Source: Hydrogenivirga caldilitoris (GTDB lineage Bacteria; Aquificota; Aquificia; Aquificales; Aquificaceae). From it: a stretch of DNA of 64,000 nt. The stretch covers positions 992,001 through 1,056,000 of the forward strand of contig NZ_RCCJ01000001.1 in assembly GCF_003664005.1 (NCBI RefSeq). The letters run 5' to 3'. Positions 21,001 to 32,238 of this stretch are shown here, one piece after another. The notes under the pieces are model-generated. The model did no database searches. It saw only the letters and a list, made by a program, of their open reading frames with translations, and was not told the DNA's origin. How positions within the stretch are numbered: the first letter of the stretch is position 1; the number at the start of each line of letters is the position of its first letter. A program made the translations under genes and the position numbers.

Positions 21001-21447
21001 ATGATGATCTACTCAGATACGGTTCGCTACGCCCTTATGGCGTTGGCTTACTTAGCTCTCCATAAAGATAGGTTAGTAAAAGCTGAGGAGATAGCAAAGG
21101 CACAGAACATTCCCAGGCCTTTCCTCTCCAAAATACTTCACGAGCTTGCAAAGAGGGAGGTTCTCCTATCTGTCAAGGGACCTAAAGGAGGCTTCGCCCT
21201 TAAGGTTGACCCTAAGGAGCTCTCCATGTGGGATGTGGTTGTCCTTATGGGTGAGGAGAACAAGTTTCAGACCTGCGTACTTATGCCCGAGAAGTGCGAC
21301 GTCTACGAGACTAACCCTTGCATAGTCCACCATAGATGGGAGAAGTTAAAGAGGAAGATAATAGACTTCCTCAAGGAAACCACCATTGCGGACCTAATCA
21401 GTGTTGAGGAAAGGCACCTTGCTGAGCTCCTCTCCTCAGGTAAGTAA
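21001..21447 (+). CDS. Rrf2-family transcription regulator (NsrR/IscR-like)
   Basis: 148 residues. The N-terminal winged helix reads SDTVRYALMALAYLAL, then IPRPFLSKILHELAKREVL and a GPKGGFAL wing. Three Cys follow in TCVLMPEKCDVYETNPC, the usual position of the Fe-S cluster ligands in NsrR and IscR (spacing C-x6-C-x7-C). The protein probably senses NO or Fe-S status. Its neighbours are a hemerythrin and a polytopic membrane protein, which fits NO stress. Its 3' end overlaps the converging gene by 50 bases. Confidence 0.88.
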   Translation: MMIYSDTVRYALMALAYLALHKDRLVKAEEIAKAQNIPRPFLSKILHELAKREVLLSVKGPKGGFALKVDPKELSMWDVVVLMGEENKFQTCVLMPEKCDVYETNPCIVHHRWEKLKRKIIDFLKETTIADLISVEERHLAELLSSGK

Positions 21448-22639
21448 GGATACCGGAGAGTAGGTTTAAGAAGAGCGTAGCGAAGGAAACGAGGTAAGAC
21501 AGAGCTGTGATGAGCCATAGTACTCTGACCTCAGAAAAAAAGGAAACAAGGAATATAAATATGCTCATTAGGTGCATGTAATAGCTCCACCAAACCCTTT
21601 TGGGTCTTATAACCTCGTGCATTGTTGGGGCGTTGGGGATACCCTTATTGGAAAGGTGTATCCATACCAGAAAGGGTATTATCCTGTACATCATAGCCAT
21701 TATCACGCTCTGGGCAAAAGTTCCAAAGGTAAAGAGGAAGAGAAGGAAAACCCTAAACTCCCTTTCTATGAAAGGGTAGAGGAGGCAAGATAAGAAAAGA
21801 AAAAACATCCCCGTATACCATAAGCTTATAAGCGGGTCACTTATCTTTCTTCTTCTTCTTAAAAGCCTTGTGACTGTGAGAACCACAAAGGAAATATACA
21901 GGAGGGAAAGGAGAAGTTTTGTAGACCAATGGAAGCCCGTGAGGAGGTTGAAAAAAAACAGTAGGGTCAACGCATAGGGGAGGTTGTACGAGAAAAATCT
22001 CAGATAGGGAGGTGTTACAAAGAACATTTCTATAACCTGAAAAGCCACAGAGGCTATGAGAAGAGCAACCCAACCCCAGAGCATCAGGCTCACATGTAGC
22101 TGGAGTAGGTAAGTGTAGCTTACGAGAAAAACTCCTTTCAGCCCAAACAGTAAGAGTAAACCTGTAAGAAAGGCTCCCAAGAAGAAAGCAAGGGCAAACT
22201 TCATACCGAGGGAGGTAGGGCTGTAGCTTTTGAGCTTAAGAAGTTTAAAAAGCATCATAGGGGCTACGAATAGAAAGCTTATAGAGAGTATGAATAAGCC
22301 TGTATAAAGAACGGTGTCGTGGGAAAGCAGGAAACCGGTGACAAACAGAAGTGTTCCAAGGGTGAGCGTTACATGGGTGAAGGCGGCTTTGGGCAAAGGG
22401 TTTTCAATTGTAGCTCCCGCAACCACAGGAAGCATCTGAAATAGAGCTCCGAACATAGTCATAGCCATAAAACCAACGGTGTATGTATGAACGAGTGCCT
22501 GAAGACTGAAGGTTCCTGTAAACAGCATGTAAAGGGAAATAAGAACCCCAAAGAGGCAAAACAAGGAAGCCGTAAGGAAGAACCTCGCAACTATACTAAA
22601 GGGCGGAAGATACAGCAGGTTAAGTCCTGCAGGTATCAT
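21398..22639 (-). CDS. Polytopic membrane protein of unknown function, possibly NO-related
   Basis: 413 residues, about 12 hydrophobic helices. Conserved-looking His occur inside or next to helices: LVHTYTVGFMAMTMFGALFQ, LLQLHVSLMLWGW, VWIHLSNKG and PTMHEVIRP. This recalls haem-binding membrane proteins such as NnrS or degenerate heme-copper oxidase subunit I relatives, but none of their defining motifs is complete. It follows the hemerythrin gene with a 4-base overlap and so forms a two-gene operon, facing an Rrf2 regulator. A role in NO handling is inferred from this context only. Confidence 0.75.
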   Translation of the reverse strand: MIPAGLNLLYLPPFSIVARFFLTASLFCLFGVLISLYMLFTGTFSLQALVHTYTVGFMAMTMFGALFQMLPVVAGATIENPLPKAAFTHVTLTLGTLLFVTGFLLSHDTVLYTGLFILSISFLFVAPMMLFKLLKLKSYSPTSLGMKFALAFFLGAFLTGLLLLFGLKGVFLVSYTYLLQLHVSLMLWGWVALLIASVAFQVIEMFFVTPPYLRFFSYNLPYALTLLFFFNLLTGFHWSTKLLLSLLYISFVVLTVTRLLRRRRKISDPLISLWYTGMFFLFLSCLLYPFIEREFRVFLLFLFTFGTFAQSVIMAMMYRIIPFLVWIHLSNKGIPNAPTMHEVIRPKRVWWSYYMHLMSIFIFLVSFFSEVRVLWLITALSYLVSFATLFLNLLSGILTYLRRGAQQGAFPQH

Positions 22640-23070
22640 ACTTCTCCAAGCTCCGCCATCTTCTCAACCATCTCCTCTGACTCTAAGTGCTGGTCGGACA
22701 TAGGGTAAAGGATCTGTTCCTCCTTCATGTTGTGTTGCTGTATAAGAATCATCAGGGATTCTCCGATAGAGAGGAACTCATCCTTATTCTGGGTTTCAAG
22801 GGCTTTCTCAAGCCTCTCCAAAAGCTCCCTCGCCTGAGCATGTTCGTGTCTCATAACCTGCGTGGGTCCCATGACTATTCCCGTTCTTTCCTCAAACTCC
22901 GGAAAGAGAACTTCCTCCTCCTTTTGGAAGTGAAGGAGAGTCTTTTCTTTAAACTCTCTAAAGGCTTCTTTAGCCTTTTCCCAGTTACCTTCCGTGACAG
23001 CCTTTTCGGCTTCAGCATAGTAGCTATCACACTTCCTGTGTTCTTCCGTCATGTACTGAGCTATCATCAT
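22636..23070 (-). CDS. Hemerythrin-like di-iron protein
   Basis: 144 residues from ATG 23070, which lies seven bases after AGGAGGT; a GTG at 23079 in the same frame is too close to that site. The hemerythrin pattern is visible: EEHRKCD at the start, LLHFQKEEEVLFPEFE, MRHEHAQARELLE and QQHNMKEEQILYPM. This gives the His/Glu ligand set H...HxxxE...H...HxxxE. Such four-helix proteins bind O2 or NO, or repair damaged Fe-S clusters (Ric/YtfE type). It is the first gene of an operon with the polytopic membrane protein. Confidence 0.9.
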   Translation of the reverse strand: MMIAQYMTEEHRKCDSYYAEAEKAVTEGNWEKAKEAFREFKEKTLLHFQKEEEVLFPEFEERTGIVMGPTQVMRHEHAQARELLERLEKALETQNKDEFLSIGESLMILIQQHNMKEEQILYPMSDQHLESEEMVEKMAELGEV

Positions 23071-23083
23071 CCTGCTCACCTCC

Positions 23084-23132
23084 TGTGAGTAAACATTAGT
23101 TTATATAATATTCCTGTGGAGTACCTTTTCAA
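23084..23132 (-). promoter_or_regulatory. Promoter and possible operator of the hemerythrin operon
   Basis: On the minus strand TTGAAA (23127-23132) and TATTAT (23105-23110) are separated by 16 bases, a good sigma-70 type promoter. The predicted start of transcription falls in the element read on the plus strand as TGTGAGTAAACATTAG (23084-23099). A related GTGAGTA element occurs at the cox/nir divergent region. On the plus strand TATAAT at 23104-23109 lies just before the GTG start of the next gene. Confidence 0.5.
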
Positions 23133-23478
23133 TTTTCTCCTCGCCCTCCATGTTTTATCAAATTCAGTCCTTTTAGGCTCTATGTTCATGTTCCTGCTTG
23201 TCTGCAAAGCAGATTGTCGGGCTGTACCTGTACACTCCTTCACCCTGAGCTTTTCCCTTCTTTACTTCGTTTCCTTTACGACAGGTTTGTGGCTAGTCAT
23301 TGAAGTGGGCTTCAGTAAGAGGGAAGTCATCATGTTAACCGGCTTCCTCCTCTCCTTCGGCTCTTTCACCACCATGGTTTCGGTTCGCAAACCTAAAAGC
23401 ATCTTCTACTCACGTCTATGTGCCCTTAGCTTCCTCTCTTACCTTACCACCTTTCTCCTCACATACCTCCTAAGGTAA
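23116..23478 (+). CDS. Small membrane protein of unknown function
   Basis: 120 residues, four hydrophobic segments (residues about 5-28, 42-63, 72-90, 100-118), with a few basic residues in the loops. The start is GTG 23116, seven bases after a TATAAT, so the message may be leaderless; later ATGs would remove the first helix. The gene diverges from hemerythrin and overlaps the end of the cytochrome b fusion by 20 bases. The family is not recognised. Context suggests a membrane part in respiration or NO response. Confidence 0.6.
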   Translation: MEYLFNFLLALHVLSNSVLLGSMFMFLLVCKADCRAVPVHSFTLSFSLLYFVSFTTGLWLVIEVGFSKREVIMLTGFLLSFGSFTTMVSVRKPKSIFYSRLCALSFLSYLTTFLLTYLLR

Positions 23479-25414
23479 AGAAACCCTTTTCCTCATGGTA
23501 AGTGATAGCAAGGCTTGTTGCCGGTTTGACCTCTCTCTCAAGCCTGAAAGTGTATGTCTTATCCGGATTCTCAGTTTCTATAACTTTTAACTCAAAGGTG
23601 TGTTCGCCTGGCTGGAGTAAAAACTCTTCATAAACGTATATAGACGCATCCTTCCTAAGCCCTCTGGGGTCGTACTTTTTCTTCAGCAGAGGTTTCCCAT
23701 CAACTAAGAAGGTTACCTCAATGGGAGAGCGTTCCACAGCTATATTCTGCATAGCCTGCATGTGTTTGAGTTTGCTATACGCCTTTCCCCCTTTCCTTAC
23801 GGGTGATGAACGGTACTTAAAGGTTATAACCGAAAGAGCTTTATCCGCAGGATAAAAGTCTATTCTGTGGGTAGTGAGGGGATAAAAGCTCAGGAAGGGT
23901 ATGAACAGGATAACGGGAGCGAGGATGTGGTTCAGCTTGCCCCGGGATATTATAGTCACATCCTCTGGAATCCTGTTCTCCCTAAGCTCCTGGAGGAATT
24001 TGTCTATATCGGAGCTCACATCTACGACGTTGGGGGCTTCTATCACCCTTACCCTGCCCCTCTCTACGTTCTTGAGTAACCTGGGTCTCCTTTTGCCAGT
24101 GAACCTCTCTTCTGTCCACTCAACACCCTCCCTGAAGTAACAGTCTGGTCCATCACAGGACACAAGAAGTACACCGTTGGTGTGTTTTAAGTAGTCCTTT
24201 ATCCAAACTGCGTTAAGAGCCCCTGCACAGGGGAGTGTGTAAACCTTTATACCTTCCCTCTCCTTGACTTCGGCACCAAAGGGACACCTGAACACAAGGA
24301 GTTCAGGTTTGAGACTTTCAACCTCTTTGAGAATTACATCGTAAGGAACCGTAGGAATCACACTTGCACTGTAGTTGCACGAGGCAACGCATATACCGCA
24401 ACCTGCACACTTGTCCTCTATTACAACAGCCTTCTCCTCTTTTTCACTAACCCTTTTCATGTATATGGCTTCATAGGGGCAGTCTTCAAAACACTGCTTA
24501 CACCCCTCACACTTGTCTTCTATAACTGCAGCAGCAGGGTTTCTTCTCCCCCTTATGAGCCATGGGAAGACAGCCAGGAGTCCAAAAAAGCCCACAAAAA
24601 CCACCCAGTTCAAAGATAAAGGAAGCACCTTAAAGAGGGGAAGACCCGTAAGGTAAAACCAGTCAAGACTCATACTAAAAGGGACCTTACCAAGGTCTGC
24701 AGGTGGGTCGCTCTTTGCCGGAAAAATCACCGCTATCACAACGGTGTACAGGGTGAGAAGAATCATAAGGTACCTTGGTGGAAAGAGTCTGGGTCTTGAT
24801 ATCCTCATAACGTGAACCCAGAGGGTAAAGATGAGAAGTATTGTTATAGCTATGTGACCAAACAGGAGAATCCTGAATAGACCCCCGAGGTTCTTTACAT
24901 CTGTTCCAAGAAAGGCACTCATAAGTGCGTGTCCGAATATCGGTATAACGCTGAAGAACTTTGCCGTAAGAAGACCTGTGAGCTGAGCCCTTTCATCCCA
25001 GACGAGGAGATAGCCTGATAAACCTATGACTATAAATATCAAAAGCGTTCCAACACCTGAAACCCATGCCACCCACCTGAACATCCTGAACCTGTCGGTG
25101 AGTATCATATGGAGCATGTGGAGGACGGCAAAAAGTATAAGTCCGTCCGAGGAGTACCTGTGCACACCTCTCATTAAGCTACCAATGGGCGAAGAGGATA
25201 TGGCTTCAACAGATTGGTAAGCGCTCTTGGGGTCAACTTTGTAGAATAGGAACAGGTATATACCCGATATAACATCAATGATAAGCAGGAATACGGTTAT
25301 AGCCCCAAGGTAATAGATGGGATTCAGCTTTGAAGAATATACAGCGCTCAGGGCGTAAGATAGGCGCTGCATGAACCTGTAAGTAGGGCTTATAGTAACT
25401 ATCTCCGTTGCCAC
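23459..25414 (-). CDS. Cytochrome b fused to ferredoxin and MvhD-like domains
   Basis: 651 residues. Residues 1 to about 300 form a cytochrome b6-like membrane domain. Its haem ligands appear as His pairs: GVHRYSSDG with LHMLHMILTDRF, and FGHIAITI with LWVHVMRISRP. Then come two 4Fe-4S motifs, CEGCKQCFEDCPYEA and CAGCGICVASCNY. An MvhD/HdrD-delta-like 2Fe-2S domain follows, with Cys in VFRCPFG, LPCAGAL, VSCDG and PDCYFREG. A final hydrophobic helix leads to an Ig-like tail, probably periplasmic. The combination suggests electron transfer between the quinone pool and a soluble donor or acceptor. It diverges from the heme-copper genes, from a shared control region. I know of no settled function for this fusion. 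Confidence 0.85.
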   Translation of the reverse strand: MATEIVTISPTYRFMQRLSYALSAVYSSKLNPIYYLGAITVFLLIIDVISGIYLFLFYKVDPKSAYQSVEAISSSPIGSLMRGVHRYSSDGLILFAVLHMLHMILTDRFRMFRWVAWVSGVGTLLIFIVIGLSGYLLVWDERAQLTGLLTAKFFSVIPIFGHALMSAFLGTDVKNLGGLFRILLFGHIAITILLIFTLWVHVMRISRPRLFPPRYLMILLTLYTVVIAVIFPAKSDPPADLGKVPFSMSLDWFYLTGLPLFKVLPLSLNWVVFVGFFGLLAVFPWLIRGRRNPAAAVIEDKCEGCKQCFEDCPYEAIYMKRVSEKEEKAVVIEDKCAGCGICVASCNYSASVIPTVPYDVILKEVESLKPELLVFRCPFGAEVKEREGIKVYTLPCAGALNAVWIKDYLKHTNGVLLVSCDGPDCYFREGVEWTEERFTGKRRPRLLKNVERGRVRVIEAPNVVDVSSDIDKFLQELRENRIPEDVTIISRGKLNHILAPVILFIPFLSFYPLTTHRIDFYPADKALSVITFKYRSSPVRKGGKAYSKLKHMQAMQNIAVERSPIEVTFLVDGKPLLKKKYDPRGLRKDASIYVYEEFLLQPGEHTFELKVIETENPDKTYTFRLEREVKPATSLAITYHEEKGFFTLGGM

Positions 25415-25599
25415 TTTTACAACCTCCTCCTGAAAGTAATTACATACTCACATCTCCTTCTATACATAATAAGAAAAAGAGACCTAATAATCATAAAAAA
25501 TTCTTATAGGTAAGGTAAGAAGAATTTATAGAAATGTGAGTAAAAGGTCGTAAACTAAGTTATAGGGTGAGTGAATAAACATTTACGGAGGTGTCAGGG
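25415..25599 (+). promoter_or_regulatory. Divergent control region of the cytochrome b fusion and the heme-copper/nir cluster
   Basis: The 9-mer ATGTGAGTA occurs as an exact inverted pair: minus strand at 25445-25453 and plus strand at 25534-25542, each about 7-11 bases after TATAGAA. A related GGTGAGTGAATAAACA follows at 25566. GGAGGTG precedes ATG 25600. The symmetric arrangement suggests that one regulator controls both directions. The matching element at the hemerythrin promoter points to a shared regulon. Confidence 0.5.
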
Positions 25600-25773
25600 A
25601 TGAGTACGGAGAGGAAAACGCCTTTCTTGCAACTGGTATTTGACGACTTTATTCTCCTGCTGTTCTTGGGGGTTGCAGTTTATGCGATCTCCTACCTGAT
25701 ATGGGGGCTTATAGAATTGGCATGGCTCCCGCCTATACCAAGTGAGATAAAAGAAGCTCTTTTAGGGAGGTAA
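25600..25773 (+). CDS. Small one-helix subunit of the heme-copper complex (subunit IIa-like)
   Basis: 57 residues from ATG 25600, which is well placed after GGAGGTG; a GTG at 25591 lies too near. A single membrane helix (FILLLFLGVAVYAISYLIWG) is followed by a short polar tail. It sits directly before the CuA subunit with a 5-base gap. Family-B (ba3-type) oxidases have such a small IIa subunit, so the position suggests the same role. The sequence is too short to prove homology. Confidence 0.65.
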   Translation: MSTERKTPFLQLVFDDFILLLFLGVAVYAISYLIWGLIELAWLPPIPSEIKEALLGR

Positions 25774-25778
25774 GTGTC

Positions 25779-26309
25779 ATGGCTATTCTTCCTCCATCAG
25801 AAGGCTGGTTTCATCAGAAGGTAGCAAAGGACGAAAAGATATGGATGGTCCTGGCGTTTCTAATGTCCTTATTCCTGTTCTTCTGGATGATAATTTGGCA
25901 CGTCTACGCAAAGCAAAACCCTTCCTTTGTAACCTACAAGACAACACCTGAGGAGTTTTATGCTTTAACGGAAGCGTTTGTAAACAAGTACAAAGTAGGT
26001 GAGGAAAACGGGATACCGGTGGTAAAACCCCCGCCCGGGAGTGACGTCTTTCTCCTGGCTCAGCAGTTCAGGTGGTACCCTGCCCTAGTTCTTAAGAAAG
26101 GGGAAGAGTACAGGCTTCATATATCTTCCCTGGATGTCCTTCACGGTTTCTCCCTTCAGCCGGTTAACATGAACTTCATGGTTTATCCCAAGTACGACTA
26201 CGTTTTGACCTTCAAGCCCACATCGGCTGGAGAATACGCGATAGTTTGCAATGAGTTCTGCGGCATAGGGCATCACATGATGATAGGAAAGATAGTTGTT
26301 GAAGAATAA
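25779..26309 (+). CDS. CuA-containing subunit II of a heme-copper respiratory enzyme
   Basis: 176 residues with one N-terminal membrane helix (MVLAFLMSLFLFFWMIIW), the compact ba3-type form. All CuA ligands are present: His in DVLHGFSLQ, then CNEFCGIGHHMM with two Cys, His and Met. This subunit accepts electrons from a periplasmic cytochrome c or cupredoxin and passes them to subunit I. It lies between the small helix gene and subunit I. The partner subunit I lacks the usual Tyr, so the complex is probably a NO reductase with CuA rather than an O2 reductase. Confidence 0.92.
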   Translation: MAILPPSEGWFHQKVAKDEKIWMVLAFLMSLFLFFWMIIWHVYAKQNPSFVTYKTTPEEFYALTEAFVNKYKVGEENGIPVVKPPPGSDVFLLAQQFRWYPALVLKKGEEYRLHISSLDVLHGFSLQPVNMNFMVYPKYDYVLTFKPTSAGEYAIVCNEFCGIGHHMMIGKIVVEE

Positions 26310-26323
26310 GGGAGGTGAAAGCT

Positions 26324-28021
26324 ATGGCTGTTGCTGTTGAAGGTGGTGAGAAGTGGTTTAGGACCTGTGATGTCACGGGTTTCAAGGTAGATGTCAGGGC
26401 TGAGAAGATAGCCAAGGTGAACGCTGTTATGGCGGTTGTCTCCTTTCTTATAGCGGTTATCGCTGCACTCCTTCTGGTCTTCACAAGATGGCAGTTGTTT
26501 CATATTCTTCCCGTTGACTGGTATTACAGGGTTTTAACTCTACACGGCCTTGACGCTCTGGTCTTTTGGATAATCTTTTTTGAGCTTGCAGCTCTTACCT
26601 TCGCATCAACCGCATTTTTAAACACCAGGATGTCCTCTCCTGCAGCGGGATGGCTCGGAACTTTACTGGCAATAGTAGGTTGGCTCCTTGTAAACTACAC
26701 GATACTCGCAGGTCAGGCGGACGTTCTGATGACCTCTTACGCACCCCTAAAGGCTCACCCCCTCTTTTACTTAGGGATGATACTCTTTGCGGTCGGAGCA
26801 CTCGTTATAGTAACTACCTTCTTCGCCAACCTTATGATATGGAGAAGGGAGAACCCAGGACAGTCTTTACCACTCTTCGTCTATGGTCTCATGGCAGCTG
26901 CTATAATCGCAGTTATAACCATAGTCTCCGGTGCCATAATCTACATACCGACCTTCTTATGGTCCCTGGGAATCATAAAAGATATAGACCCGGCTGTTTA
27001 TAAATTGGTATGGTGGGGTCTTGGACACCCCTCCCAGCAGATAAACGTTGCAGCCCATGTTTCCGTATGGTATCTCCTTGCCTTTTTGACAGTTGGCGGT
27101 ACATCTATAAACGAAAAGGTAAGCAGATTTGCCTTCGTACTTTACATCGTTGCTATAAACGTTGCCTCTGCCCACCATCTCCTCGTTGACCCCGCAGTGA
27201 GCCCTGTCTGGAAGGTATGGAATACCAGCTACGTTATGTACCTTGCAGTATTCGCATCTATGATCCACGCCTTCGCCGTTCCCTCCGCCATAGAGGTTGC
27301 ACAGAGGAGAAAGGGATTCACCAAAGGTCTCTTTGAGTGGTTAAAGGCCGCCCCGTGGGGTAACCCAGGATTCTCAGGGCTTATGCTCTCTCTGATAATC
27401 TTCGGCTTCATAGGCGGTATAACAGGCGTTGTGAACGGGATGGAGCAGACAAACATAATTGTCCACAACACCATCTCGGTAACCGGTCACTTTAAGGGAG
27501 CAGTTGTTGGTGGAACAGCTTTAGCCTTCATGTCAGTTACTTACTACCTCATACCTCTCCTCTTCAGAAAGAAGATAGCCTTCTACGGAGTGGCGAAGTA
27601 CGTTCCCTGGCTCTTCGGAATAGGTATAGCTATACTTGGGGTCTCCATGTACATACTCGGAGCCTTTGGGGTTCCAAGGAGACACTGGGACATAACCTTC
27701 TCCGGAGGACCGTTCACTTATACATTCAACCCTGTAACGGATTTCTTCTGGGCTCTCTTTGGACTGGGCGGAGCACTTGCAGTTATAGGAGCGTTGATAT
27801 GGATACTTCAGGTGGTTGTCTCCGTCTTCTTTGGACAACCTTTCAACGGACCCAAAGACCTGCAGATTCCCATAGCGGAGCCTCCTCCTCCGGCTAAGGG
27901 AGAACACGAAGGCTTTGCGGCTCCGGGGACATTCGTTCTGGTTCTGCTGTTCATGGTCACCTTCATCATATTCGTTGCCCTTAACTACGGTTGGCTTTCC
28001 GCCATGTGGGAGGTCAAGTAA
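26324..28021 (+). CDS. Heme-copper subunit I without the catalytic Tyr; probable NO reductase (eNOR-like)
   Basis: 565 residues from ATG 26324 (GGAGGTG nine bases before), about 13 helices. The low-spin haem ligand His74 (TLHGLDA), the CuB ligands His235 and His284/285 (SAHHLLVDP) and the high-spin haem ligand His389 are all present. In the helix VI motif the usual HPEVY reads HPSQQ, so the cross-linked Tyr is Gln239. In helix X the usual HFH reads HFK, so Lys391 stands where the second low-spin haem ligand should be. Loss of the Tyr with CuB kept marks NO-reducing branches of the family. From memory, Gln at this site was described for the eNOR branch. The setting next to nirS supports NO reduction. 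An aberrant oxidase remains possible. Confidence 0.85.
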   Translation: MAVAVEGGEKWFRTCDVTGFKVDVRAEKIAKVNAVMAVVSFLIAVIAALLLVFTRWQLFHILPVDWYYRVLTLHGLDALVFWIIFFELAALTFASTAFLNTRMSSPAAGWLGTLLAIVGWLLVNYTILAGQADVLMTSYAPLKAHPLFYLGMILFAVGALVIVTTFFANLMIWRRENPGQSLPLFVYGLMAAAIIAVITIVSGAIIYIPTFLWSLGIIKDIDPAVYKLVWWGLGHPSQQINVAAHVSVWYLLAFLTVGGTSINEKVSRFAFVLYIVAINVASAHHLLVDPAVSPVWKVWNTSYVMYLAVFASMIHAFAVPSAIEVAQRRKGFTKGLFEWLKAAPWGNPGFSGLMLSLIIFGFIGGITGVVNGMEQTNIIVHNTISVTGHFKGAVVGGTALAFMSVTYYLIPLLFRKKIAFYGVAKYVPWLFGIGIAILGVSMYILGAFGVPRRHWDITFSGGPFTYTFNPVTDFFWALFGLGGALAVIGALIWILQVVVSVFFGQPFNGPKDLQIPIAEPPPPAKGEHEGFAAPGTFVLVLLFMVTFIIFVALNYGWLSAMWEVK

Positions 28022-28024
28022 CCC

Positions 28025-28777
28025 ATGGCTCCCCTCCTTGCCTCCCTTCTTTTTCTTCTTTCCTTTTTATCCTTCTCTCAGGACATAACGCCCAACGCAG
28101 AAGTAGTTCTCGGCAGGGAGGTTCCTAACGTAATCCTCACAGATTCAAAGGGAAAGAGGTTGAGCCTTAGGGAACTTTCTGAAGGGAAACCTGTTCTTTT
28201 AAGCTTCATATATACGAGATGTACCTCCTCCTGCCCCCTGATAGTTCAAAGGCTCAGGGAAGCCCTCTCCCGAATTGACTCAGAGGACTACAAGGTGGTT
28301 CTCGTGGACTTTGACGATAGAGATACCATCTCGGAGCTGGGAAAGTTTGTGAAGCAGAGGCAAATATACGAGCCAGGTTGGAGTGTAGTCCTCGTGGAAA
28401 GCAAGCAGCTTATGTCTCTCACAAGAACCCTTGACTTTAAGTTTTTCTACGACAAGGAGACCGACATGTTTGCCCATCCCAACGTGCTGATCGTCCTCTC
28501 TCCCAAGTTAAAGGTTACGGGATACATACTGGGTATATCTTACGACCCCCAGAGGCTATCTGCCCTTTTGAAAGAAGCCCGTGAGGAAAGGGTTTCAATA
28601 AACCCCATAAAAGGTTTGTTACTCAAGTGCTTTAGGTTTGACCCTGTAACTGGCACCTACAGTATTGACTGGTCTTTCGTGGCTATGGTCTTGGGCGGGC
28701 TTATCCCCATAACGGTGATGTTTTACTACGTGGTTTTGAAGAATATCCTACTTGGGTTCAGGAGGGCAACCGGATGA
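28025..28777 (+). CDS. SCO1/SenC-type copper chaperone
   Basis: 250 residues with a signal or anchor helix at the start. A thioredoxin-like domain follows with the copper site CTSSCP and the distal His (in MFAHPNVLIV), and a second hydrophobic segment lies near the C-terminus (about residues 218-240). SCO proteins load copper into the CuA site of subunit II. It follows subunit I by three bases and precedes nirS, which has its own promoter. Confidence 0.88.
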   Translation: MAPLLASLLFLLSFLSFSQDITPNAEVVLGREVPNVILTDSKGKRLSLRELSEGKPVLLSFIYTRCTSSCPLIVQRLREALSRIDSEDYKVVLVDFDDRDTISELGKFVKQRQIYEPGWSVVLVESKQLMSLTRTLDFKFFYDKETDMFAHPNVLIVLSPKLKVTGYILGISYDPQRLSALLKEAREERVSINPIKGLLLKCFRFDPVTGTYSIDWSFVAMVLGGLIPITVMFYYVVLKNILLGFRRATG

Positions 28778-28891: not shown

Positions 28892-30541
28892 ATGAAGTCG
28901 TTTAAGCTCGGTCTGGCAGCAGGAGTGCTAACGTTGGGTGCCAGCCTGGTAGCAGGTGCCGCGGAGGTCCCAAAACTCACGCCGGAAGAGATGAAGAAAG
29001 CCTCTCAGATATTCTTTGACCGGTGTGCAGGATGTCACGGGATGCTCAGGAAGGGTGCAACGGGACCGGCCCTCACGCCGGATATAACGAGGCAGAGGGG
29101 ACTTCAGTACCTTGAGACGATAATCACCAACGGAACACCGGGAGGAATGCCCGACTGGGGAAGACAAGGCATACTCACGAAGGACGAGATCAAGCTACTT
29201 GCGAAGTTCCTTATGCACGAGCCCCCTGAACCTCCACTGATGTCTCTTGCAGAGATGAAGAAGTGGTGGAAGGTTTACGTCCCACCCGAAGCCAGACCTA
29301 CAAAACCTGAGCACAACCTCAACTGGAAGAACTTCATGGGAATCATACTCAGGGATGTAGGTAAGGTAGCTATAGTTGATGGAGATACGAAGAAGCTTGT
29401 CAGCATAGTGGATACTGGATTTGCTGTCCACATATTCAGATCTTCAGGGACGGGAAGGTACTTCCTCACCATAGGAAGGGACGGAAAGGCAACCCTCATA
29501 GACCTCTGGCTCAAGAAACCCGACAAGGTCGCGGAGGTGAAGGTCTGTTACGACGCGAGGTCCATAGATACGAGCAAGTATAAAGGACCCAGAGGTGACT
29601 TCATGGACAAGCTTGCCATAGTGGGATGCTACTGGCCTCCAAGCTTCGTTCTCCTTGACGGGCAGACATTAGAGCCTATTAAGATAGTGGACACAAGTGA
29701 CTACACTTGGGATACCAACGAGTACGTGAGAGAGGCAAGGGTAGCCTCCATAGTCGCCTCCCACCACGACCCAGAGTGGATAGTCAGCAACAAAGAACCA
29801 GGAAAGGTTCTCATAGTCAATTACGAAGACCCCACAAACTTAAAGATGCATTACATTGACGCGGAGAGGTTCCTCCACGACGGTGGTTGGGACATGTCTA
29901 AGAGATACTTCCTGGTTGCTGCCAACATGAGGAACAAGGTGATAGTTATAGATTCCGTTGAGAAGAAGTATGTTGCAGAGATAGAGACTGGTGTAAAACC
30001 ACACCCTGGAAGGGGAGCTAACTTCGTCCACGCAAGGTACGGACCCGTATGGTGTACGGGACACCTTGGTTCCAACAACGTAGCTTGCATAGGAACAGAC
30101 CCGATCAACAGGTCAAGGTACGCCTGGAAGCTCGTTGCCAACATTGAACTCCCCGGACCCGGTGGAGGAACGCTCTTCATCAAGACACATCCCGAATCCC
30201 CCCACATATGGGTTGACAGACCCCTCAGCGCCGAGCCGAAACTCCAGAGAGAGCTCTACGTTATAGACAAGGACAGCCTCAAGGTTATAAAGACGATAAA
30301 CGTTATAGAGGAGCTTAAGAAGAAGGGCTACAAGAACATAGACGGAAGGGTCGTTCATCCAGAGTTTGATATGTACGGCAAAGAGGTATGGGTCTCCGTG
30401 TGGGGTAGAAAGGATAAGCCCACCGCACTGGTTGTCTTTGACGACAGGACGATGGAGATAAAGGAGGTAATAACCGGGGACTGGGTAAGGACTCCGACGG
30501 GCATATTCAACGTATACACAACGACCAACGATATCTATTGA
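28892..30541 (+). CDS. nirS: Cytochrome cd1 nitrite reductase
   Basis: 549 residues with a signal peptide (LGLAAGVLTLGASLVAGA). An N-terminal haem c domain (CAGCH near residue 46) is followed by the eight-bladed haem d1 propeller. Typical blade stretches are GFAVHIFRSSGTGRYFLTIG, VASIVASHHDPEWIVS with the distal His pair, and GHLGSNNVACIGTDP. The enzyme reduces nitrite to NO in the periplasm. The genes that follow make its haem d1. It has its own promoter and an upstream palindrome. Confidence 0.96.
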   Translation: MKSFKLGLAAGVLTLGASLVAGAAEVPKLTPEEMKKASQIFFDRCAGCHGMLRKGATGPALTPDITRQRGLQYLETIITNGTPGGMPDWGRQGILTKDEIKLLAKFLMHEPPEPPLMSLAEMKKWWKVYVPPEARPTKPEHNLNWKNFMGIILRDVGKVAIVDGDTKKLVSIVDTGFAVHIFRSSGTGRYFLTIGRDGKATLIDLWLKKPDKVAEVKVCYDARSIDTSKYKGPRGDFMDKLAIVGCYWPPSFVLLDGQTLEPIKIVDTSDYTWDTNEYVREARVASIVASHHDPEWIVSNKEPGKVLIVNYEDPTNLKMHYIDAERFLHDGGWDMSKRYFLVAANMRNKVIVIDSVEKKYVAEIETGVKPHPGRGANFVHARYGPVWCTGHLGSNNVACIGTDPINRSRYAWKLVANIELPGPGGGTLFIKTHPESPHIWVDRPLSAEPKLQRELYVIDKDSLKVIKTINVIEELKKKGYKNIDGRVVHPEFDMYGKEVWVSVWGRKDKPTALVVFDDRTMEIKEVITGDWVRTPTGIFNVYTTTNDIY

Positions 30542-30552
30542 GGTGAAATGAC

Positions 30553-32238
30553 ATGGCCTCTCTCATCTCACTACGCTCCCTCGCCCCCTCCCTTCCCCTT
30601 TTCTTTTTTCTTTTTTCCTTTGCAGACGATGGGAGAGGTATATACCTAAAACACTGTGCTTCCTGTCACCATGAGGACAGGATAGGAAGAACAGCTCCTC
30701 CTCTCCTACCAGAGTTCCTCGGGAAGAAAAACGACGATTATCTTGTAAGGGTTATAAAGGAAGGAATTCCCGCATCCAGCATGCCTTCTTTCGGGTTCCT
30801 CTCCGAAAAGGACGTCAAGAAATTGATAGATTTCATTAGGAAACCCTCTCCTCACTTGATCTATACACTGAAGGATATAGAGAACAGTTATACAAAGTTA
30901 GAAGGTAATACTAAGAAACTTGGTATAAAGGACGTTAAGAACCTCATCGTTGCGGTTGATAGAGGCTCCAGAAAAGTATCCCTGATTGAAGAAAGCCGTG
31001 TTCTTGATAGCTTCCCTTTTGGGAACGTCCATGGAGGTGTAAAGTTCTCCCCTGGGGGTAGGGACTTTTACGTACCCGCAAGGGACGGATGGATAGCCCA
31101 TTACAGTGTTGAAGAGGGAAGACTGAAGGAGAAGATAAGAGCCTGTATTTACCTGAGAAATATAGCCCTTTCACCATCAGGTAACAGACTTCTGGCAAGC
31201 TGTGTCTTACCCAAATCGCTCCTCTTGATGGACAAAAACCTCAAACCCTTAAAGAAGATAGAGCTGGAGGGAAGACCGGGGGCAGTTTACGAGCTGAACA
31301 AGAGCGGACACTTTATACTGACCTTCAGGGATAAGCCATACGTGGCTTTAGTAAATCAGGAAGGGGATATCCTTTATAAGCGCATAGATAGCCCTTTAGA
31401 GGACTTCTTCATAGACCCCCTTGAAAGGTTCATAGTGGGCAGCTCAAGAAAAGAGGGGAAGCTGTTAGTTTACGAGCTTGAATCCCTAAAAAAGGTATTT
31501 GAAAGAGAGGTACCAGGGCTTCCTCATCTCTTCTCTGCAAGCTTCTGGTACACAGGAGGAAGCTTTTACTTCGCCACCCGTCACATAGGTTCAACAAAGG
31601 TAAGTATATGGAGAATGTACGATTGGGAGTTAGTCAAAGAGATAGACACGGGAGGGAAAGGCTTTTTTGTCAGAACGAACTCCAAGGTTCCTGACCTGTG
31701 GATAGATAACGGTGGCGGTGAGTTTATCCTCATTGATAAGAAGAGCCTTGAGGTAAAGAGGTTTAAAGCTTCAGAGGGTGGACAGGCAACCCATGTGGAG
31801 TTTTCCGCTGACGGGAGGTTCGCGTATGTGAGCGTGGTGGGGGGTAAAAGGGGGCTTTACCTTTACGACCCTTTAAGCCTTGAACCCTTAGGCAAGATTC
31901 CGGCGGAATACCCTGTTGGGAAGTACAACTTTGTAAATAAAAGCAGGAGTTTTGATACCGTCCAGCTTGGTTATCAGGTTTTTATGGAAAAGTGCTGGGG
32001 CTGCCACCATACGACAAAGGAAGCCTTTGGACCTCCGTTCAAATGGATCGCCAAACATAGGAACAAAGCTCAAATAGTTTCTCAGATGCTTAACCCTGAA
32101 GAAACGGCAAAACTACTGGGATACGATAGGAACGCGATGCCAAAGATAGCCCTGTCTCCGGAGGAGGTAGAGGTCCTGCTTTCTCTGATAGAGAGTCTTA
32201 AGGGGGATGAGGAGGATAAACATGCTAAGACTGAGTGA
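30553..32238 (+). CDS. nirN: NirN-like haem d1 protein with an extra C-terminal cytochrome c domain
   Basis: 561 residues. A signal peptide precedes an N-terminal haem c site (CASCH) and a d1-type propeller related to NirS, NirN and NirF. After the propeller, at about residues 475-550, comes a second haem c domain with CWGCH and a Met-containing RNAMPKIALSPEEVEVL end. NirN of Pseudomonas has only the N-terminal haem c and performs the last step of haem d1 synthesis (dihydro-d1 dehydrogenation). The extra domain looks like a fused NirC-type cytochrome. It lies 11 bases after nirS and overlaps nirJ. Whether it is NirN or another d1 propeller protein is not settled by motif alone. Confidence 0.75.
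   Translation: MASLISLRSLAPSLPLFFFLFSFADDGRGIYLKHCASCHHEDRIGRTAPPLLPEFLGKKNDDYLVRVIKEGIPASSMPSFGFLSEKDVKKLIDFIRKPSPHLIYTLKDIENSYTKLEGNTKKLGIKDVKNLIVAVDRGSRKVSLIEESRVLDSFPFGNVHGGVKFSPGGRDFYVPARDGWIAHYSVEEGRLKEKIRACIYLRNIALSPSGNRLLASCVLPKSLLLMDKNLKPLKKIELEGRPGAVYELNKSGHFILTFRDKPYVALVNQEGDILYKRIDSPLEDFFIDPLERFIVGSSRKEGKLLVYELESLKKVFEREVPGLPHLFSASFWYTGGSFYFATRHIGSTKVSIWRMYDWELVKEIDTGGKGFFVRTNSKVPDLWIDNGGGEFILIDKKSLEVKRFKASEGGQATHVEFSADGRFAYVSVVGGKRGLYLYDPLSLEPLGKIPAEYPVGKYNFVNKSRSFDTVQLGYQVFMEKCWGCHHTTKEAFGPPFKWIAKHRNKAQIVSQMLNPEETAKLLGYDRNAMPKIALSPEEVEVLLSLIESLKGDEEDKHAKTE

Follow-up and report, generated by a model that had tools for sequence, protein, structure and literature searches.

In the heme-copper NO reductases eNOR and sNOR, the position of the active-site tyrosine is occupied by glutamine and asparagine, respectively (PMC8756737, Table A4). 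eNOR is described as a two-subunit enzyme in the literature that we searched, and the description in PMC8756737 leaves out the protein dealt with here. According to Table A3 of the same paper, a single Chloroflexi ORF, RME88945.1, unites cytochrome b6, ferredoxin and FlpD with a cytochrome c domain. MvhD serves as the electron entry to HdrA in the Hdr-Mvh complex (PMC9012536). In HdrA2 of M. acetivorans, an HdrA-MvhD fusion, a double ferredoxin is followed by MvhD. A further system to be considered, for its resemblance to the protein dealt with here, is the oxidase assembly factor CcoG/FixG: it, too, is a membrane protein beside a heme-copper enzyme, holds two [4Fe-4S] clusters on the cytosolic side and exports a beta domain. 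We analysed a stretch of 64,000 nucleotides from Hydrogenivirga caldilitoris (the window), in which a cytochrome b, a double ferredoxin, an MvhD domain and an exported tail are joined in one chain, hereafter called the chimera. Its parts belong to known families; what is new is their combination and their tie to eNOR. Because the chimera adjoins eNOR nearly everywhere it was found, it very probably serves this enzyme as a partner in electron transfer or assembly that has so far gone unrecognised. No description of its role was found in the accessible literature, and apart from PMC8756737 the searches for an NO reductase associated with MvhD or cytochrome b returned nothing relevant.

The chimera (23459..25414, minus strand, GTG start) comprises 651 amino acids in the order cytochrome b, two [4Fe-4S] clusters, MvhD, helix and exported tail. 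A sequence-only reading had proposed this one-chain make-up from the haem His pairs, the 4Fe-4S motifs, the MvhD cysteines and the tail, and the ORF, the Pfam matches and the alignment confirm it. The cytochrome b core, defined by Pfam, structural alignment and homologue alignment, consists of helices A–F (residues 24–291; 24542..25345, minus strand; Pfam Cytochrome_B match at 24–205) and carries the pairs H85/H187 and H99/H201, the haem histidines of helices B and D in bc/b6f cytochrome b. It is followed by the double [4Fe-4S] ferredoxin domain (residues 295–350; 24365..24532, minus strand; 4Fe-4S dicluster match at 301–350), with the motifs C302-C305-C308-C312P and C336-C339-C342-C346, and by the MvhD/FlpD-type [2Fe-2S] domain (residues about 372–479; 23978..24301, minus strand) with C377, C396, C420 and C425. 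The FlpD match (386–479) scored 30.5 bits against a Pfam cut-off of 22.3. All 4 haem His and all 12 Cys (8 of the ferredoxin, 4 of the MvhD domain) are invariant in an alignment of 48–49 chimera homologues from Aquificota, Gammaproteobacteria and Defluviimonas, so that the set of domains is not due to chance.

The chimera shares with bc/b6f cytochrome b and b6-subunit IV the four haem His, helices A–F, a helix that aligns with helix G, and the ef-loop. It differs from them in the quinol-site motif PEWY, which is replaced by D251-W252-F253-Y254, with Asp in the place of Glu; Asp-Trp was found in 49/49 homologues and the following Phe in 46/49, and PEWY itself is absent from this alignment. The same picture emerged when the chimera was aligned with the bc1 cytochrome b of its own genome, as the ef-loop is kept (PAD..PAD....[ED]W) except that Asp takes the place of Glu. 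Further differences are the predicted position of the Fe-S module in the F-G loop and the absence of Rieske and cytochrome c1/f partners from the chimera locus; the bc genes of the genome lie elsewhere. The Fe-S pair of ferredoxin and MvhD resembles the C-terminus of HdrA2 and has the same Cys sets, but the FAD domain and the HdrBC partners of HdrA2 are absent and the module instead shares its chain with a cytochrome b. No HdrA/B/C or hydrogenase partner genes were present in the conserved chimera neighbourhoods, and a search of the genome found no second FlpD domain, so that the partner of the chimera is not a standard Hdr-Mvh system. Among NCBIfam models, those of the ExtP/ExtQ b-type cytochromes of selenite/tellurite reduction operons matched the cytochrome b part best; however, the score for ExtP (NF040969) was 103.7 bits, below the cut-off of 290, and no Ext genes were noted around the chimera.

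An AlphaFold2 model of the chimera built with 21 sequences had a mean pLDDT of 70.5. In VIA-align, model residues 28–522 matched bc-complex cytochrome b (Z about 20–23, rmsd about 3 A over about 255 residues), and in many rows the aligned range passed the MvhD domain and ended at residue 518–522, the post-MvhD helix (residues 498–519; 23858..23923, minus strand) falling on the seventh cytochrome b helix, G. In the chimera the Fe-S module may thus be set into the cytoplasmic F-G loop of a cytochrome b core that is complete in other respects, and the tail may lie in the periplasm after helix G, a placement inferred from a model in which the helix region has low pLDDT. Most Proteobacteria split the gene at this point, into helices A–F with the Fe-S module and a second gene for helix and tail. 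The tail (residues 520–651; 23462..23857, minus strand), predicted by alignment and model to be an exported beta-sandwich, had no match in Pfam with E values of up to 10, and hence none of FixG type. Across 51 aligned tail sequences it contains no invariant His or Cys and one nearly invariant Met, and a metal or haem on the tail is therefore unlikely. A fold search with the tail model gave background-level matches only (best Z 8.4), which were headed by the HGSNAT lumenal domain (Z about 8) and included no FixG-type structure.

The sequence-only reading had also placed the chimera divergently from NO reductase genes, and this was borne out: a gap of about 185 bp separates it from an operon on the plus strand that comprises a 57-aa membrane ORF (25600..25773), to which a small ORF corresponds at the same place in sister genera and Proteobacteria, a CuA cupredoxin subunit II (25779..26309) and a Tyr-less subunit I (26315..28021), the subunits being assigned by profile match. 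Subunit I reads H238-P-S-Q-Q where oxidases have HPxxY, and the Gln at the Tyr position (Q242) was present in 40/40 aligned homologues, whereas the Tyr is retained in the other heme-copper oxidase that this genome encodes. The CuA ligand residues of subunit II were invariant in 41/41. On these residues the two subunits are identified as eNOR, a CuA-type heme-copper NO reductase, to which the chimera stands as an extra gene. The neighbour was at first taken for sNOR (norSY-senC) because of the adjoining SCO gene, but the Gln, where sNOR has Asn, rules this out. Profile matches further identified the SCO/SenC copper chaperone (28025..28777, plus strand) and the linked cytochrome cd1 nitrite reductase NirS (28892..30541, plus strand); the gene after nirS (30553-32238, plus strand) encodes a cytochrome d1 protein that is NirN-like and matches cytochrome c in two separate stretches. 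Downstream of the chimera lie two conserved neighbours on the minus strand, a hemerythrin-type protein recognised by profile (22636..23079) and a 413-aa membrane protein without Pfam match that emerged from the neighbourhood comparison (21398..22639). A relative of the latter adjoins eNOR clusters in some Gammaproteobacteria.

The divergent arrangement of chimera and eNOR, with NirS close by, recurs in the sister genera of Aquificota. The cluster order is small ORF, subunit II, subunit I, (heme O synthase), SCO, chimera, tail and (hemerythrin or a 457-aa oxidase-like protein), and it is kept in the first 20 gamma loci compared, as far as the contigs reach, in most of a second set of gamma loci and on a Defluviimonas plasmid. 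Exceptions are G299 and G409, where the chimera lies about 14–16 kb from subunit I, and G262, G360 and some others, where the two are on different contigs. In G137 the chimera is on a 27-kb contig with no eNOR beside it; this genome may be incomplete, or the locus may be separate as in G299. Heme A synthase is found near the chimera in three loci (L101, L110 and L111) and on the other strand in L115. The 457-aa protein, encoded next after the tail in many eNOR clusters (L030:9994-11367, with equivalents in 23 loci), is heme-copper-oxidase-like; it lacks the HH pair of helix VII and keeps the HYH of helix X.

Linkage between the chimera and eNOR was also evident at the level of genomes. Among 41 Aquificota genomes the chimera and the Gln-type subunit I occurred in the same 14 (14/14), and across the phylum the chimera was present in 21/136 genomes belonging to three genera. 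Of 369 Gammaproteobacteria, 34 had the chimera, 33 subunit I and 32 both (Fisher p 1.4e-42), and in the sole eNOR-only genome (G405) the contig ends just after subunit I. Within Proteobacteria the pairwise distances of the chimera and subunit I were correlated (r = 0.85, permutation maximum 0.20), part of which stems from the common ancestry of the hosts. The two refuting results named in the sequence-only reading, the absence of a link to nir or heme-copper genes and a homologue characterised for another role, were not found, and its link to NO reduction is strongly supported by the near-perfect linkage in two phyla and by operator-like elements conserved in the genus (see below). An Aquificota-like chimera with 55% identity was also seen on a contig of a Bathyarchaeota bin, which is perhaps misbinned.

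The cytochrome b of the chimera also occurs in sister proteins in which the cytoplasmic module is exchanged for NAD(P)H reductases; it is 34–37% identical to that of the window chimera and 45–53% to that of the gamma chimera. In G298 (L096:3672-6212), a second protein within an eNOR cluster joins this cytochrome b, at 53% identity to the gamma chimera, to flavodoxin, FAD and NAD domains, as in a CysJ-like NADPH diflavin reductase (547.6 bits), and in G224 (L097:5583-7571) it is fused to a plant-type 2Fe-2S and FNR (Fer2/FNR) reductase. An incomplete protein at a contig end beside the eNOR cluster of G483 has a cytochrome b of the same kind. The G298 and G224 fusions represent unnamed fusion families. 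CysJ-like and Fer2/FNR reductase modules oxidise NAD(P)H in characterised relatives, so that by analogy electrons probably enter the chimera, too, from the cytoplasm. Of the electron bridge between the quinone pool and a soluble partner that the sequence-only reading had proposed, the link between membrane and cytoplasm is thus well supported by the anatomy of the chimera and the NAD(P)H reductase fusions; the quinone end may be indicated by the retained ef-loop with its Asp for the PEWY Glu.

In our judgement the likeliest role of the chimera, with about an even chance of being correct, is to pass electrons from the cytosol into the pool of quinone or cytochrome c on which eNOR draws. The MvhD [2Fe-2S] domain would take electrons from a cytoplasmic donor, ferredoxin or a flavoprotein. 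Both [4Fe-4S] clusters would relay them to haem b on the n-side, from which they would cross to haem b on the p-side. Their acceptor would be either quinone, bound where the ef-loop is retained, or a cytochrome c in the periplasm, the pool finally supplying the CuA site of eNOR for NO reduction. The complete haem pair, the quinone-type loop and the table row of RME88945.1 speak for such a respiratory role. Against it stand the Rieske/bc complex that this genome possesses in any case, the Asp in place of the PEWY Glu, the lack of Rieske and cytochrome c1 in the locus, and the plasmids of Thermus and Thermomicrobium that carry a related subunit I without the chimera. Moreover, the genes ahead of the chimera are mostly assembly genes (heme O synthase, SCO and in some loci heme A synthase) and not the structural pair, and its identity across loci (56%) is like that of SCO (54%) and below that of subunit II (69%). 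This position, in which SCO immediately precedes the chimera and any heme O synthase lies ahead of it too, together with the SCO-like conservation, favours the main alternative, possible though less likely, namely that the chimera is an assembly reductant that would bring cytosolic electrons to the periplasmic face, reducing Cu(II) or the SCO/CuA disulfide, or aiding heme A synthesis. Such a protein would be likened to the Cu(II)-reducing assembly factor CcoG, but built on a cytochrome b scaffold with haem His. Heme A synthase neighbours the chimera in several loci, and in L101 the two sit together apart from the structural genes; the cytochrome b-CysJ sister protein of L096, in turn, has the copper chaperone PCu(A)C and a further SCO as neighbours. 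However, the tail offers no invariant Cys or His for copper and no FixG-type Pfam match, two haems and a quinone-site loop exceed the needs of a metal reductase, and in Aquificota the chimera is divergent from SCO and not beside heme synthases.

Electrons might also run in the opposite direction, quinol being oxidised at the p-side and its electrons passing inward via the Fe-S module to a cytosolic acceptor. Low-potential reductant for CO2 fixation would result, and the quinol electrons might be bifurcated, eNOR forming the high-potential branch. The retained ef-loop with its invariant Asp-Trp and the n-side Fe-S module would fit this, as would the fact that Aquificota in general are autotrophs. 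We nevertheless regard it as improbable, since the sister fusions carry NAD(P)H-oxidising modules, the cluster has no Rieske-type high-potential acceptor and the step from quinol to ferredoxin is uphill. A bolder form, in which a Rieske-free cytochrome b would couple quinol oxidation pulled by eNOR and NO to the reduction of cytosolic Fe-S carriers, so that quinone-based bifurcation would yield low-potential reductant from denitrification, appears very improbable. Many vent bacteria exchange denitrification genes, and an unrelated housekeeping redox protein might merely be carried along with them, but near-perfect linkage, correlated divergence and the same order across two phyla so strongly disfavour this that we consider it the least credible reading of all. 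With the chimera, eNOR would gain a third conserved redox protein, one that is tied to it in two phyla and can be replaced by fusions with NAD(P)H reductases. This points either to a direct supply of cytosolic reductant for NO reduction or to a redox factor dedicated to assembly. If true, either role would alter how N2O production by these bacteria is modelled.

The intergenic region contains two operator-like elements, identified by alignment of Aquificota loci and exact pattern match: GTGAGTATGTAATTACTT before the chimera (25434..25451, minus strand) and GTGAGTGAATAAACATTT before the eNOR operon (25567..25584, plus strand). Both were largely conserved in the alignment of nine Aquificota loci. 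A pattern built from the two had no further exact match in the window, and loose matches were near chance. These elements make co-regulation of the chimera and the eNOR operon plausible. A resembling element, GTGAGTAAACATTAGTTTA, precedes the hemerythrin gene (window 23085-23103), and an Rrf2-family gene was recognised by profile match at 21001-21447.

With respect to subunit I, pairwise identity to the Thermus, Thermomicrobium and Defluviimonas homologues was about 44–48%, and the Gln-type subunit I on the Thermomicrobium and Thermus plasmids (L092, L093 and L094) had no chimera on the same plasmid. At residues 392–394 in helix X of the window subunit I, the low-spin haem His of HFH is replaced by Lys (HFK), which might possibly give a His/Lys haem. 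HFK was seen in the eNOR subunit I of Aquificota and Thermus (plasmid loci L093 and L094), and HFH in the proteobacterial and Thermomicrobium copies.
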